This document shows, piece by piece, positions 8,772-16,236 of a DNA stretch of 64,000 nt. Origin of the DNA: an uncultured Flavobacteriales bacterium (GTDB taxonomy: Bacteria > Bacteroidota > Bacteroidia > Flavobacteriales > Schleiferiaceae); NCBI GenBank assembly GCA_913055685.1, contig CAJXKC010000003.1, positions 124,001-188,000 of the forward strand, in the 5' to 3' direction. The translations under genes and the position numbers were made by a program. Positions within the stretch are counted from its first letter, which is position 1. Each line of letters opens with the position of its first letter. The notes beneath the pieces are model-generated. The model searched no databases and was not told where the DNA came from. It was given only the letters and a program-made list of their open reading frames with translations.

Positions 8772-11114
8772 ATGAAAAAAATTATCCCTCTAATTTTTAC
8801 TTTATTCTGCAGTCTCAACTCCTCTGGTCAGGGGCTTAGCGCACCGGTAGCCGAAGGCGTTTACGGAGGTTTAGCTGGCGATATAGAAACCTGGTCTTTT
8901 CACAGCGATTCGATTTACTGCGTGGTAAGCACCTTTAGCCCTAATTCCATTTTTTGGGCCAAGGCTAGTCGCAATGCTAGCCGCTCTAACTTGCCTTGGG
9001 AACCTTTAGCTTCCGCTGATGCGGATGACGGCTTCGGCAGCAGTATCTCAAACATCGAAATACACCAAGCTTCCAATACCATTTTCTTTCTTTCTATGGG
9101 AACGGTTTACAGCACCAGCTTTGGAGCCAGTTCCGCCACCGCTGTAGACTCCCTAGTTAAAGACTTTTTGATTTCTGGCGACACCATGGCCTTGGTAAAA
9201 AACAATCCTAGTCCGGGTGGCCAAGATGTGCTCGACTTCGGTGCCATTAGCAGCAGTGGCGTTTACAGTAAGTCTGGCTCGATCAGCTTGCTTAAAAATT
9301 ACACCGAGCCTCCCCAGATGATTTTGGATCCGGCCGACCAGCACCTTCACCTTTTGGAGCGTGGTGCTAGTCCGCATATATACCGTATCGTCGCTCCCTT
9401 CTACAATATGAGTTCAACGATGTCCCTTAGCTCATTACTAAATGCCGCCCCCTCTATCCCTAATATCGAATGGCGTGTGATGGGTTTTGCTCCCAATGGC
9501 GACCGTTATATGGGCGGACAACCACCGCTTAATAATCCAACTGTACGCGACCGGCATATCGCCTGGACCAGCGACAATGGCATCACTTGGGGAGACACCG
9601 CTATTAATACACCCGGACCAATAGGGGGTATCGTGGGACCCAATATGCTCTTTAATACCCATTCTGGCTCTACCGCTCTATTTTTAGGTAATGCTATAGA
9701 AGACGATATTAGTCTCCTGGATAACTGGTATAATCCAGGGCGCCTTTATATCGAGGAATTAAATCGCGCCAATGATGGCGTCGTAAAACAAGATCCGATT
9801 GATGGTGATATTGTTTATCATACCACCAATATTGGCATGGGTTATTCCACCGCCACTGGTGACTCCATTTTCGCTTGGAATGAAGGACTTACCGCAGTGC
9901 AAGTGAATGATATTGATATGAACCGCTCCTTTAGCACTGGTTGGGTAGCCTCTAAATCTGGAGTGCGACAGGTAACGGATTACAAGACGAGTCCGGTTTG
10001 GTCGGAACCGAAATTCCCGCAGTTTGACGGCGCACCGTATACTGCAGTCGCCATGACACCTGGTGCCGACGACACGGTGTTTGTTGGAAACCAGAGAATT
10101 TATCGAACTCAGAACGGGGGAACCTTTACCGGTCCTGGTCCGATGGACGATGGTTGGAGCCAAGTTTTTACACCCGAAATTGCCCCCTGGAACTTTAATC
10201 GCATTAATGCCCATTGCACCAGTATTGCAGTAGCACCCGACAGTGCTAATATCATAATGGCTGGCTATAGCATTGACTTTGGCGACAAAGGCGGCTGCTT
10301 TTACAGTTTAGATGGCGGAAATACCTGGGCCCAGTTAATGCTAAATGCCAGCGCAATGGGTCAAGATGCTGATGTGAACGATGTAGTACTTACTCGAGAA
10401 GCCGGAAATATTGTGGCCTACATTGGTCTAGCCTCCGACCCAGTAAGCACAGGTCAATACGGCCTTTTTAGGGCCGAATTAAGCGGAAGTACCTGGACCT
10501 TAGCTCGCGATGGAAGCTTTGGTGCTACCGATGCCATCATTGATCTGGAACTAAATGAGAGTGGCGATAGCTTATTTGTGTTGAACTACGATCCCGGCCT
10601 GGTTCCGGTTAGCAATGTATTTATTAAAGACCTTTCTAGTGGTAGCTGGACCAATTTCCCCGGACCAAATGCCAGTGGAGAAGCGAGCGCTATTACCGAT
10701 GGAGATGGCTTTGTATTTATCTCATTAGATGAAAAAATATACATCAATAGTGTTGATGGCACTCTGGGATGGAGCCTCGGTTATGCTTATCCGGTAGGTA
10801 CCGAAATAAACGTGCTATTTTACGATGAGTTGCTCGTAGGTACCGGTACCGGCTTATACGCCCATGACCTTGATCCTAATTTTAGCATCGATGAAAATAC
10901 AGCAAGCAAGCCCTGGCAACTATACCCTAATCCCGTTAGGTCTACCCTCCGCCTTAATAAAGCAATTGACTTTAAAATCTATGATTTATTTGGGAGGATC
11001 GTTTATCAATCTAAAGGGCCGCAAAAGCAAATAAACCTAGCCCACTGGCAAGAAGGCCTATACATTTTACGCAGCTCAACCGGCGAAAGCCAACGCTTCC
11101 TAATTAAACACTAG
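8772..11114 (+). CDS. T9SS-secreted beta-propeller-like protein
   Basis: I place the start at the ATG at 8772 because the following residues (MKKIIPLIFTLF..., ending SSGQG) form a clear signal peptide. An in-frame ATG at 8706 would bury it. The 780-residue product contains scattered repeat motifs of the BNR/sortilin kind (TSDNGITWGD, SLDGGNTWAQ) and is probably a beta-propeller. The last 75 residues are a T9SS type A sorting domain (LYPNPVRSTLRL...GLYILRSSTGE). It is presumably a cell-surface or released protein; ligand or activity is unknown. The stop codon overlaps the GTG start of the next gene by one base, so the two are probably co-transcribed. Confidence 0.8.
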   Translation: MKKIIPLIFTLFCSLNSSGQGLSAPVAEGVYGGLAGDIETWSFHSDSIYCVVSTFSPNSIFWAKASRNASRSNLPWEPLASADADDGFGSSISNIEIHQASNTIFFLSMGTVYSTSFGASSATAVDSLVKDFLISGDTMALVKNNPSPGGQDVLDFGAISSSGVYSKSGSISLLKNYTEPPQMILDPADQHLHLLERGASPHIYRIVAPFYNMSSTMSLSSLLNAAPSIPNIEWRVMGFAPNGDRYMGGQPPLNNPTVRDRHIAWTSDNGITWGDTAINTPGPIGGIVGPNMLFNTHSGSTALFLGNAIEDDISLLDNWYNPGRLYIEELNRANDGVVKQDPIDGDIVYHTTNIGMGYSTATGDSIFAWNEGLTAVQVNDIDMNRSFSTGWVASKSGVRQVTDYKTSPVWSEPKFPQFDGAPYTAVAMTPGADDTVFVGNQRIYRTQNGGTFTGPGPMDDGWSQVFTPEIAPWNFNRINAHCTSIAVAPDSANIIMAGYSIDFGDKGGCFYSLDGGNTWAQLMLNASAMGQDADVNDVVLTREAGNIVAYIGLASDPVSTGQYGLFRAELSGSTWTLARDGSFGATDAIIDLELNESGDSLFVLNYDPGLVPVSNVFIKDLSSGSWTNFPGPNASGEASAITDGDGFVFISLDEKIYINSVDGTLGWSLGYAYPVGTEINVLFYDELLVGTGTGLYAHDLDPNFSIDENTASKPWQLYPNPVRSTLRLNKAIDFKIYDLFGRIVYQSKGPQKQINLAHWQEGLYILRSSTGESQRFLIKH

Positions 11115-11458
11115 TGAAGGCAGTTGAAGAATTTATTTTGAATTACCCAGGACCTCAAAAAGAGGTGCTGGGTTTTTTACATCAGCATTTTGAGGCGGCA
11201 GGGCTGAAGGCGAAAATCGCCTATGGTCTACCCTTCTACGATGGCCGTAAATGGATTTGCTATTTACACCCTTTGAAAAACAGCTCGCAAACTGAACTTT
11301 GTTTCACCCGGGCCCATCAATTTGAGGATCCTAGCGGCTTGTTAAAAGCAAGGAATAGAAAACAGATAAAAGGGCTTATCATCGAGGACCTAGAATCTAT
11401 CCCCCTAGAAGAAATTAACCGCATCTTGGAAGCGGCAATTGCGCTTGACAATTCTTAA
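11114..11458 (+). CDS. DUF1801 (YdhG-like) domain protein
   Basis: The 114-residue product resembles the DUF1801/YdhG fold. It has an N-terminal helix with VEEFILNYPGPQKEVLGFLH, then KAKIAYGLPFYDGRKWICYLHP, matching the family pattern of a strand with I-x-Y-G-x-P-F. The start is GTG at 11114, sharing its first base with the preceding TAG stop. There is no internal ATG that would keep the N-terminal helix. The family is cytoplasmic and of uncertain function. Coupling to a T9SS-secreted protein is probably a matter of gene packing. Confidence 0.78.
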   Translation: MKAVEEFILNYPGPQKEVLGFLHQHFEAAGLKAKIAYGLPFYDGRKWICYLHPLKNSSQTELCFTRAHQFEDPSGLLKARNRKQIKGLIIEDLESIPLEEINRILEAAIALDNS

Positions 11459-11478
11459 TCAAACTGACAAATATCATT

Positions 11479-11507
11479 TTTGACTAAGGCTAGTGACCTT
11501 ACATTTG
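11479..11507 (+). promoter_or_regulatory. Bacteroidota-type promoter of a candidate small RNA
   Basis: TTTG (11479-11482) is followed after exactly 17 bases by TACATTTG (11500-11507), an exact match to the Bacteroidota sigma-factor consensus TTTG-N17-20-TAnnTTTG. No coding region on the plus strand follows. The transcript would begin near 11512-11514. Confidence 0.65.
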
Positions 11508-11512
11508 AATTG

Positions 11513-11610
11513 TCATTAGTAGTAGTTCTTTCAAACCTTAACTACTAACAGCCTTGCGCTGTTACATGTTTTGTTTTTCGTATTGACCTTCCAATGTCAA
11601 TACTTTTTTT
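11513..11610 (+). ncRNA. candidate small structured RNA (about 100 nt), new
   Basis: Between a strong promoter and a strong terminator lies a non-coding stretch with three consecutive hairpins. TAGTAGTT (11520-11527) pairs with AACTACTA (11540-11547). AACAGC (11547-11552) pairs with GCTGTT (11558-11563) over a CTTGC loop. GTATTGAC (11580-11587) pairs with GTCAATAC (11596-11603), followed by seven Ts. The only open frame inside is six codons without a ribosome site. It does not look like 6S RNA (no long bulged rod), a tRNA or a riboswitch, because no gene follows on that strand. The start is inferred from the promoter; the end comes from the terminator. Confidence 0.55.
11580..11610 (+). terminator. 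rho-independent terminator of the candidate small RNA
   Basis: A perfect 8-bp stem, GTATTGAC/GTCAATAC (11580-11587 and 11596-11603), has an 8-base loop and is followed by TTTTTTT (11604-11610). Confidence 0.8.
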
Positions 11611-11627
11611 GGTGTTTTTTTGGAATG

Positions 11628-11655
11628 AAAAAGCCGCGTCCCCCCGCGGCTTTTT
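11628..11655 (-). terminator. terminator of typA (bidirectional shape)
   Basis: GCCGCG (11633-11638) pairs with CGCGGC (11645-11650). There is AAAAA on one side and TTTTT on the other, so it can stop transcription from either strand. It lies 8 bases beyond the typA stop codon and is assigned mainly to typA. It also backs up the small-RNA terminator. Confidence 0.85.
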
Positions 11656-11662
11656 CCTTTTT

Positions 11663-13465
11663 CTAGTAGTTTATCTTTTCACCTCTTTTTCGTTCCGTTT
11701 CCTTTAGAAACACCTTTCTTAAGCGAATGCTTTCGGGTGTAACCTCCACGTACTCATCGCCCTGAATGTATTCCAAAGCTTCTTCCAGAGAGAATTCGAT
11801 ATGCGGTGCAATACGCATTTTATCATCGGCACCAGCCGAACGCATATTGCTCAGTTTTTTTGTCTTGGTAATATTAATGGTAAGATCACCTGGACGATTG
11901 TTCTCGCCAATAACTTGACCTTCGTAGATTTCCTGGTTTGGCGGCACGAAGAAACGGCCGCGATCTTGCAGGTTATTGATAGAATAAGGAATGGCCTTTC
12001 CGGTTTCCAAAGAAATCAAAGATCCATTCTGGCGGCCGGGCAACTCACCCTTATAGGGCTGATACTCTTTATAACGATGCGACATTACCGCCTCTCCTGC
12101 CGTTGCCGTCATCAAATAGTTTCGCAAACCTATGATTCCGCGTGAGGGAATAATAAACTCCAAGTGCATGCGGTCTCCCTTAGGCACCATTTCGGTTAGC
12201 TCCCCTTTTCTTTGAGTTACAGCCTCAATAGCTTTACCGTGAATTGATTCGGGTAAATCGATGCTCAATTCCTCAACCGGCTCGGACTTTTTACCGTCAA
12301 TCTCGCGGAAAATCACTTGCGGCTGACCAATTTGAAGCTCGTAGCCTTCACGACGCATGGTTTCAATTAATACGGACAAGTGCAATACACCACGACCATA
12401 AACCTTAAAGCTATCGGCAGAGTCTGTCTCCTCAACTTTCAGAGCCAGGTTCTTTTCCAATTCTTTATCTAAACGATCTTTCAAGTGACGAGAAGTAACA
12501 AACTTCCCTTCCTTACCAAAGAAAGGCGAATCGTTGATCGTGAATAGCATACTCATTGTAGGCTCGTCGATCTTAATCGTTTCTAAAGCCTCTGGATTTT
12601 CAAGATCCGCTACGGTATCGCCGATATCAAAACCTTCGATTCCGGTTAGGGCACAAATCTCACCGCTACTTACCTCATCTACCTTACGCTTTTCGAAACC
12701 GTCGAATACGAAGACTTCTTTAATGCGGCTTTTTACAATGCTGCCATCGCGCTTAACCAAGCTAACCGGCATATTGGGTTTTAAACTACCGCGTTGTACT
12801 CTACCGATGGCAATTCGACCGATGTAGGAAGAGTAATCTAAACTGGTAATCAACAACTGAGGCGTACCTTCTTGCACTTTAGGCGCAGGAATATGCTCTA
12901 CAATGGTATCTAAAAGCGGATTGATATTATCGGTTGGCTTTTGCCAATCCTCACTCATCCAGCCATTTTTAGCCGAGCCATAAATGGTTGGGAAATCCAA
13001 TTGCTCCTCGGTGGCTTCCAAGGCAAACATTAAGTCGAAAACCATTTCATGTACCTCATCGGGTGTACAATTAGGTTTATCGACCTTATTGATAACTACG
13101 ATAGGTTTTAAACCTAAATCAAGGGCTTTGGCTAAAACAAAACGGGTTTGGGGCATCGGACCTTCAAAGGCATCTACTAAAAGAACGACGCCATCGGCCA
13201 TATTTAAAACACGCTCTACTTCTCCACCGAAATCGGAGTGACCGGGGGTATCGAGAATGTTAATTTTGGTGTCTTTGTATTGTACGGAAACATTCTTGGA
13301 AAGAATGGTAATTCCGCGTTCGCGCTCGAGGTCATTGCTATCCATGATCAACTCACCCGGAGTTTCGTGATCAGCGAAAGCTTTACAAGCAATTAGCATT
13401 TTGTCTACCAAGGTAGTTTTACCGTGGTCTACGTGAGCAATGATAGCGACGTTACGCAAGTTCAT
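11663..13465 (-). CDS. typA: ribosome-associated GTPase TypA/BipA
   Basis: TypA is a translational GTPase related to EF-G and LepA. It binds the ribosome and helps 50S assembly and stress adaptation. The start is placed at the ATG at 13465 (MNLRNVAIIAHVDHGKTT), giving 600 residues, the family length. An upstream in-frame ATG would add 15 residues outside the family pattern. P-loop AHVDHGKT is at 10-17; DTPGHSDFGGEVER (G3) and NKVDK (G4) follow. The C-terminal half carries the BipA-specific RGIIGLRNYLMTATAGEAVMSH region. The gene is monocistronic, with a terminator close behind. Confidence 0.95.
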   Translation of the reverse strand: MNLRNVAIIAHVDHGKTTLVDKMLIACKAFADHETPGELIMDSNDLERERGITILSKNVSVQYKDTKINILDTPGHSDFGGEVERVLNMADGVVLLVDAFEGPMPQTRFVLAKALDLGLKPIVVINKVDKPNCTPDEVHEMVFDLMFALEATEEQLDFPTIYGSAKNGWMSEDWQKPTDNINPLLDTIVEHIPAPKVQEGTPQLLITSLDYSSYIGRIAIGRVQRGSLKPNMPVSLVKRDGSIVKSRIKEVFVFDGFEKRKVDEVSSGEICALTGIEGFDIGDTVADLENPEALETIKIDEPTMSMLFTINDSPFFGKEGKFVTSRHLKDRLDKELEKNLALKVEETDSADSFKVYGRGVLHLSVLIETMRREGYELQIGQPQVIFREIDGKKSEPVEELSIDLPESIHGKAIEAVTQRKGELTEMVPKGDRMHLEFIIPSRGIIGLRNYLMTATAGEAVMSHRYKEYQPYKGELPGRQNGSLISLETGKAIPYSINNLQDRGRFFVPPNQEIYEGQVIGENNRPGDLTINITKTKKLSNMRSAGADDKMRIAPHIEFSLEEALEYIQGDEYVEVTPESIRLRKVFLKETERKRGEKINY

Positions 13466-16208: not shown

Positions 16209-16236
16209 CAAAAATAGAAATATGACATTAGTCATA
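16209..16236 (-). promoter_or_regulatory. AraC-type gene promoter region with palindrome
   Basis: On the minus strand TATTTTTG (16216-16209) fits the -7 consensus TAnnTTTG and ends only 4 bases before the start codon at 16204. The transcript may therefore be leaderless or nearly so. A perfect two-fold element, TATGAC-ATTA-GTCATA (16221-16236), sits in the spacer just upstream and could be an operator for autoregulation. No clear -33 TTTG is visible. Confidence 0.4.

Follow-up and report, generated by a model that had tools for sequence, protein, structure and literature searches.

The locus described here lies in a window of 64,000 nucleotides, which is the whole stretch of DNA that was analysed (G000, contig C3, positions 124,001-188,000; all coordinates below are those of the window unless a contig is named). 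The source genome is 2.96 Mb in size, and its close relatives with names are Flavobacteriales MAGs, including UBA7878 and ih4 (CP051243). A DUF1801 gene on the forward strand (11114-11458) is the upstream neighbour of the locus, while typA, on the reverse strand, converges on it with a stop codon at 11663. The gap between the two stop codons measures 204 bases, in agreement with the intergenic gap of about 200 bases described by the first-pass annotation. Elsewhere in the window, positions 1-143 hold part of a tmRNA gene (Rfam RF00023), the 5′ end of which is cut off.

Within the gap, a small RNA of ~99 nt is predicted on the forward strand (11512-11610), with its start placed from the position of the -7 promoter element and its end from the T-tract of a terminator. 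Upstream of it, on the same strand, are an FNR/CRP-type palindrome, TGACAAATATCA (11465-11476), predicted to be a class II activator site with its centre at -41.5; the tetramer TTTG (11479-11482), a proposed -33 element; and, after a spacer of 17 nt, the -7 element TACATTTG (11500-11507), with the consensus TAnnTTTG at -12 to -5. The palindrome falls just outside the stretch that had been delimited before and was overlooked there. The minimum-energy fold of 11512-11610 (-20.0 kcal/mol, z -4.35, matched by 0 of 200 shuffles) contains three hairpins of 8, 5 and 8 pairs, which bears out the earlier description of a ~100-base stretch with three hairpins. The first hairpin (11520-11547, 8 pairs) stands in for the separate P1 hairpin of relatives and includes part of a conserved 5′ leader, GUCAUUAGUAGUAGUUCUUU (11512-11531), which is a candidate seed for mRNA pairing, and the second (11548-11562) has 5 pairs in the fold and 7 in the scan. 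A U-rich linker (11563-11579) leads to the intrinsic terminator (11580-11610), in which an 8-pair stem (11580-11603) is followed by T7 (11604-11610), as had already been recognised. A second terminator-like hairpin is located 3′ of the T7 terminator on the forward strand (11627-11656), and the typA stop codon is ~50 bases past T7.

A copy of the element is present between DUF1801 and typA in six of the seven genomes of the genus. A DNA search of 59 genomes returned clear matches confined to the genus, with E ≤ 2e-5 in four of the six congeners, and all four copies sit between the same two genes, as does a fifth congener copy (G004) that was located via its box. The seventh genome (G006, 89% complete) has no DUF1801 gene, extended box or T-rich stretch, and the element is missing from the ~450 bases past typA, a limit set by the contig. 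It can be noted that the DUF1801 gene (L136 here) and the small RNA occur together in six genomes and that both are missing in G006. At E ≤ 1 there was some match in 51 of the 59 genomes, but those outside the genus (the best at 0.003 over 18 bases) were taken as chance, and a distant DNA search of plasmids gave six short matches, none of which covers 80% of the query. A model built from six sequences (R2) and run with stricter filters against 246 genomes of the order gave five strong hits, all within the genus, with G002 and G006 not among the matches listed. Two weak hits, G230 (E 0.007) and G207 (E 0.048), have neither box nor leader, one of them lies inside a gene, and both were rejected, such that no convincing copy was found outside the genus among these 246 genomes. 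The typA flanks were also compared: from 30 loci, 19 were analysed (G006 and 18 others; six carriers and five distant loci were omitted) and 17 were located, and the 16 flanks from outside the genus held two box-like matches (L141 and L150), both without a -7 element or leader. Judged from the genomes compared, the small RNA family is young or fast-evolving.

Four conserved blocks stand out in the alignment of the six copies: TGAYAAATRTCA followed by TTTT, the -7 element, the leader, and the terminator with TTTTTTTGGTGTTTTTTTGG. The box is conserved as TGAYAAATRTCA in all six, including the TGAC..GTCA of G002, which retains the symmetry. The leader block opens with RTCATWAG in six of six copies and extends to about +20, and the start predicted at 11512 is the exact point where this conserved leader begins. 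An exact Bacteroidota promoter had been claimed for the locus, and the claim stands in part: the -7 element is conserved (TACATTTG in five copies and TACCTTTA in G004), but the -33 TTTG belongs to the window copy only, is absent from the other five and is probably not needed. TAnnTTTG is found at -12 to -5 of mapped transcription starts in Flavobacterium psychrophilum (PMC9723704). In six of six copies 29 nt separate the box centre from the start of the -7 element (range scanned, 15-44 nt), and this spacing, combined with the -12 to -5 position of TAnnTTTG, puts the box centre at -41.5 and the predicted start at 11512.

The same geometry recurs at promoters elsewhere in the genus. Spacing is 29 nt in all seven genomes at the promoters on each side of fnr (14 promoters, with one mismatch in the -7 element), where the genes are a copper-type P-ATPase gene, ccoI-like by context, and a gene of 146 aa. 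It is also 29 nt, without a -7 mismatch, in two of two ccoS-ccoN promoters, such that the box centre is at -41.5 in 16 of the 16 promoters examined beside fnr and at ccoS-ccoN, and it is 30 nt in four of four hemA/AraC loci (CcoS, CcoN and HemA were identified by NCBIfam). In the window, TGAYNNNNRTCA with an exact TANNTTTG at a distance of 29 nt is seen a single time, at the small RNA gene, and 0 of 100 dinucleotide-shuffled windows contain this combination; 5 of 100 do when one -7 mismatch is allowed. An early search pattern, TTGAYNNNNRTCAN{20,24}TANNTTTG, was dropped, as it demands a T before the box where the small RNA gene has a C. Across the seven genomes TGAYAAATRTCA occurs 42 times versus 14 for the reversed control, so a background exists. 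Thirty exact boxes were placed in context, with 25 before genes and five within genes (the script marks three more as inside a frame, owing to a neighbouring frame extended at its 5′ end). The 25 consist of six at the small RNA, four at hemA/AraC, four at universal-stress-like/oxidoreductase genes, one other, and two each at the ccoI-like gene, the gene 3′ of fnr, ccoS, the dioxygenase and a lipoprotein-like gene. A -7 element with at most one mismatch is found at 29 or 30 nt for 19 of the 25, and no such element is found at either distance for the four universal-stress and two dioxygenase loci with exact boxes.

Two further observations concern these boxes. A second FNR-type box in the window, TGACATTAGTCA (16223-16234), is located in the space that separates an AraC-family/hemH operon from hemA; a -7-like element carrying one mismatch is found at 30 nt, and the same arrangement is seen in G002, G003, G004 and G006. 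Short genes of secreted or lipoprotein-like type (L101, L114 and L111; MRQFLTFFLL..., MKVLFASLIA...) likewise have an FNR-type box in front of them, with a -7 element at 29 nt, and are likely to belong to the regulon too.

Two regulators are candidates for the protein that would act at the box. A gene for an FNR-like protein is present in seven of seven genomes of the genus; the protein of the window genome (232 aa) has Fnr as its best NCBIfam match (5.7e-32, below the curated cut-off) and FNR chains as its best matches among solved structures. Cys7, Cys10, Cys35 and Cys109 are among the residues invariant in all seven proteins, and Cys7, Cys10 and Cys109 align with FNR cysteines while Cys35 does not; that these residues include cluster ligands is a guess from the alignment. 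A second FNR/CRP-type regulator is likewise encoded in seven of seven genomes (C1:1142921 here, L045; L040-L044 and L046 in the others); the three copies that were read contain a TLNCCM stretch. The FNR-type genes are on contig C1, apart from the small RNA gene between DUF1801 and typA on contig C3. The second regulator is directly followed by a TGAYNNNNRTCA box in seven of seven loci, with a cysteine dioxygenase gene next in the six loci examined (all but that of G006) and rhodanese after it, and seven of seven loci have a GTGAYNNNNRTCAC-type box ahead of the rhodanese position. This regulator is possibly a sensor of sulfur or cysteine.

It is conceivable, though we consider it unlikely, that the same small RNA is controlled by this second regulator and answers to the sulfur or cysteine state of the cell and not to oxygen. 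The 29-nt spacing is found in six of seven dioxygenase promoters (with two -7 mismatches) and in seven of seven rhodanese promoters (one -7 mismatch in six, two in one), and since it also occurs near the second regulator, the spacing marks FNR-type activation and cannot name the protein. Further, in G004 the extended box CTGAYAAATRTCATTTTT is matched exactly just once, at the dioxygenase promoter. Against this, the dioxygenase promoters have at least two -7 mismatches in seven of seven genomes, and the base before the box points the other way: it is C in six of six small RNA copies, as in two of two ccoS promoters and six of seven promoters on the 3′ side of fnr, and G in four of seven dioxygenase and seven of seven rhodanese promoters. 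This base is a weak mark, because it is A in seven of seven boxes on the ccoI-like side of fnr. We clearly favour FNR over the second regulator.

In the middle of the RNA the letters vary and the hairpins are kept. Folded singly, the six copies have z values of -2.8 to -4.6, and the predicted length is 111-133 nt in the other copies versus ~99 nt in the window copy, the shortest. In the folds of G001, G002 and G005 the leader is single-stranded and a helix of ACAAAA with UUUUGU, the latter in the U-rich linker, closes P1 and P2 into a three-way junction that is followed by the terminator; this fold is seen in three of the six copies. The lowest-energy fold of G004 has a free leader and two hairpins without the closing helix, and in a fold of G004 that includes the second T-tract the leader is paired to it. 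The exact-transcript fold of G003 has a partly paired leader. The leader is predicted to be unpaired in four of the five other copies, whereas the window copy has lost the separate P1 hairpin and its leader pairs with AACUACUA. Lack of stem conservation in close relatives had been named by the first-pass annotation as a ground for refutation, and the small RNA passes this check, although the window copy has a local variant of stem 1.

A covariance model built from G005 and G001 and run on 20.6 kb of loci recovered G002 (E 1e-12), G003 (2e-9), the window copy (9e-6) and G004 (2e-5), all at the correct places. The structure alignment obtained in this way has pairing in 96.5% of its 170 cells and changes on both sides in 18 of its 42 pairs, a count equalled by 0 of 500 shuffles and compared with at most four in slid versions, with the caveat that the alignment was fitted to the structure model and that G001 and G005 are nearly identical. 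The terminator stem has four of eight pairs altered on both sides and 100% of its cells paired, and helix 4, with letters in G001 and G005 only, carries no information. The promoter, the terminator, the presence in six of seven genomes and the hairpins kept despite sequence change make the independent small RNA gene that the first-pass annotation had predicted the best reading, and its view that the RNA matches none of the families it named (6S, SRP, RNase P, tmRNA, riboswitches) agrees with the Rfam covariance search, which found no family at the gathering score for the window locus or for L002-L005 and L097. Low-threshold Rfam hits (rli117, RNAI, the Phe leader and others) were rejected as all are far under the cut-off, the best being rli117 at 27.4 bits versus a cut-off of 87 and on the opposite strand.

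The most conserved stretch of the locus, TTTTTTTGGTGTTTTTTTGG (T7GGTGT7GG, 11604-11623, forward strand), is near-invariant and spans the T-tract of the terminator and the bases beyond it. It occurs once per genome and at this locus only in six of the seven genomes of the genus (five exact, G004 with one mismatch), with 0 matches for a reversed-pattern control. That a stretch mostly past the terminator is conserved to this degree may relate to the second T-tract, to a longer RNA or to a shared reading frame. This stretch is also an argument for a quite improbable reading, in which a short FNR-driven transcript acts in cis on typA, by convergent transcription or read-through into its 3′ end, and the body of the RNA is unimportant. 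The typA gene is convergent, its stop codon is close behind T7, and the near-invariant stretch lies between two terminators and nowhere else in these genomes. However, two terminator-like hairpins stand in succession on the forward strand, mere transcription would not require the conservation of stems and a 5′ leader, and G006 retains typA without the element.

The reading frames of the gap offer another explanation. The first-pass annotation had reported no open frame in the gap, which was not fully accurate, as two frames (31 and 37 aa) overlap it. The terminator stem contains, in its 3′ arm, the ATG (11594) at which the 37-aa frame starts. Five of the five other copies have an ATG frame in register with this one, such that a shared frame, M..FLVFFWNEK, is open in six of six and includes the near-invariant T-rich stretch. 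It may be imagined that the RNA serves as leader to a tiny hydrophobic protein and that the putative terminator is an attenuator, where read-through allows translation from the ATG of the 3′ arm, and among the few changes within the frame AAT to AAC in G002 is silent. We regard this as less probable again than an action on typA. The shared frames stop anywhere from 23 to 94 aa past the ATG, running through the typA terminator into typA antisense; CTT to CAT and GCC to GTC in G004 alter the protein, and the changes are too few for a test; the conserved leader has no start codon; and the T-rich code is what chance would be expected to give from a double T-tract. A transcript that stops at T7 would be without the shared frame, and we read the frame as a probable by-product of the T-tracts. 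The last alternative, that there is no gene and a promoter-like site is paired by chance with the terminators that convergent genes require anyway (terminator-like sites are frequent in the window, with 12 seen versus 5.5 expected), was already disfavoured and is scarcely credible given the box, -7 element and leader conserved in six genomes, the exact spacing, the model recovery and the covariation.

The searches for targets made here found none. The leader begins with eight bases, GUCAUUAG, that complement CUAAUGAC, which would make start codons natural targets. Near-full complements of the leader (at most three mismatches) are not enriched, with 20 hits, three of which are the small RNA itself, versus 29 for the reversed control. 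In a duplex test on nine gene starts from the loci of fnr, the dioxygenase and typA, using the first ATG, pairing was not conserved (mean z -1.53 to 0.51), and a complement of the seed elsewhere in the window (61551) was rejected as a target as it lies inside a coding frame and not at a start. Alternatively, the leader may owe its conservation to a role at the DNA level, as the initially transcribed region. Enterobacteria and Neisseria have Hfq. In 36 of 36 relatives of the present genome a search for it (PF17209) gave no match; the control search matched five of 14 named genomes, E. coli included.

Taken together, the reading that we hold with moderate confidence is that of an FNR-activated, Hfq-independent small RNA gene that would be switched on at low oxygen and whose product would be paired to mRNA via its 5′ end. 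At low oxygen, FNR on the site centred at -41.5 would bring in RNA polymerase at a promoter with a good -7 element but without a conserved -33 element, in the manner of class II activation, and the RNA would end at its own intrinsic terminator. The sequence itself displays the conservation, the promoter geometry, the terminator, the covarying stems and the lack of an Hfq match; transcription, FNR binding and the low-oxygen signal are inferred. The exposed 5′ end would be the conserved pairing region and the hairpins behind it a stable body. Pairing with mRNAs and their repression are conjecture: without Hfq, the RNA may base-pair with mRNAs, for which start codons and their surroundings are the likeliest sites, and such pairing may lower the output of genes unwanted at low oxygen. 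A new small RNA family at the level of the genus, with a predicted oxygen switch, is well supported by the comparison of genomes.

FnrS of Escherichia coli and other enterobacteria is a free-standing small RNA of a size similar to the present RNA that works with Hfq and lowers the expression of target mRNAs by base pairing. The two are alike in that an FNR-type site is positioned at -41.5 of a short, terminator-ended gene, the start being a predicted one here. They differ in that the present RNA has no Rfam match, belongs to another phylum with another promoter consensus and has a host for which none of 36 relatives has an Hfq match; further, its conserved part is the 5′ end, and a three-way junction is seen in three of six copies. 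The best reading of these comparisons is that the present RNA would be an analogue, and not a homologue, of FnrS. The FNR site is at -41.5 for fnrS of both E. coli and the gonococcus, as described in PMC3032703, where the FnrS-like RNA of N. gonorrhoeae is given as a 108-nt, FNR-activated RNA with measured induction at low oxygen and as a likely functional equivalent of FnrS, with no fnrS homologue seen outside the Enterobacteriaceae. By that account, the gonococcal RNA shares with the present one FNR activation from a -41.5 site, and it is a precedent for independent origin; it differs in phylum and promoter consensus, and its induction was measured where that of the present RNA is predicted.

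Within the Bacteroidota, SnoA of Bacteroides thetaiotaomicron lies between hcpR and hcp, its level is unchanged without hcpR, and it has been proposed to act with HcpR on promoter DNA (PMC13370916, preprint). As described there, it is similarly a regulatory RNA tied to a Crp-family regulator (HcpR), whereas the gene of the regulator predicted to drive the present RNA is not beside it but on another contig. Rfp18 and the other Rfp RNAs are structured small RNAs of Flavobacterium psychrophilum, where the main promoter motif is TAnnTTTG (PMC9723704); they come from the same order and share that motif, and are set beside the present RNA by description only. The main text of that paper makes no mention of Crp, typA, anaerob- or FNR. 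No report of an FNR-activated small RNA in the Bacteroidota was found in the literature searched, a search that had most subscription papers outside its scope.

The analysis suggests a compact code for FNR-type promoters in the genus, consisting of a box, 29 nt and TANNTTTG, which predicts that more members of the regulon can be recognised. FNR-controlled small RNAs are known from enterobacteria and Neisseria, according to PMC3032703, and the Bacteroidota are described as lacking classical RNA chaperones (PMC11697453). Whether the present RNA represents an independent FnrS-like circuit, with an FNR-activated RNA in a lineage without Hfq, a 5′ seed for start codons and a three-way-junction body in several copies, is close to an even call. 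If true, a circuit joining FNR to a small RNA would have evolved again in the Bacteroidota, with another type of promoter and without Hfq, and it would offer a simple, testable case of how small RNAs find mRNAs without classical chaperones. It is this independent evolution in a lineage without Hfq that would be the main interest of the locus.
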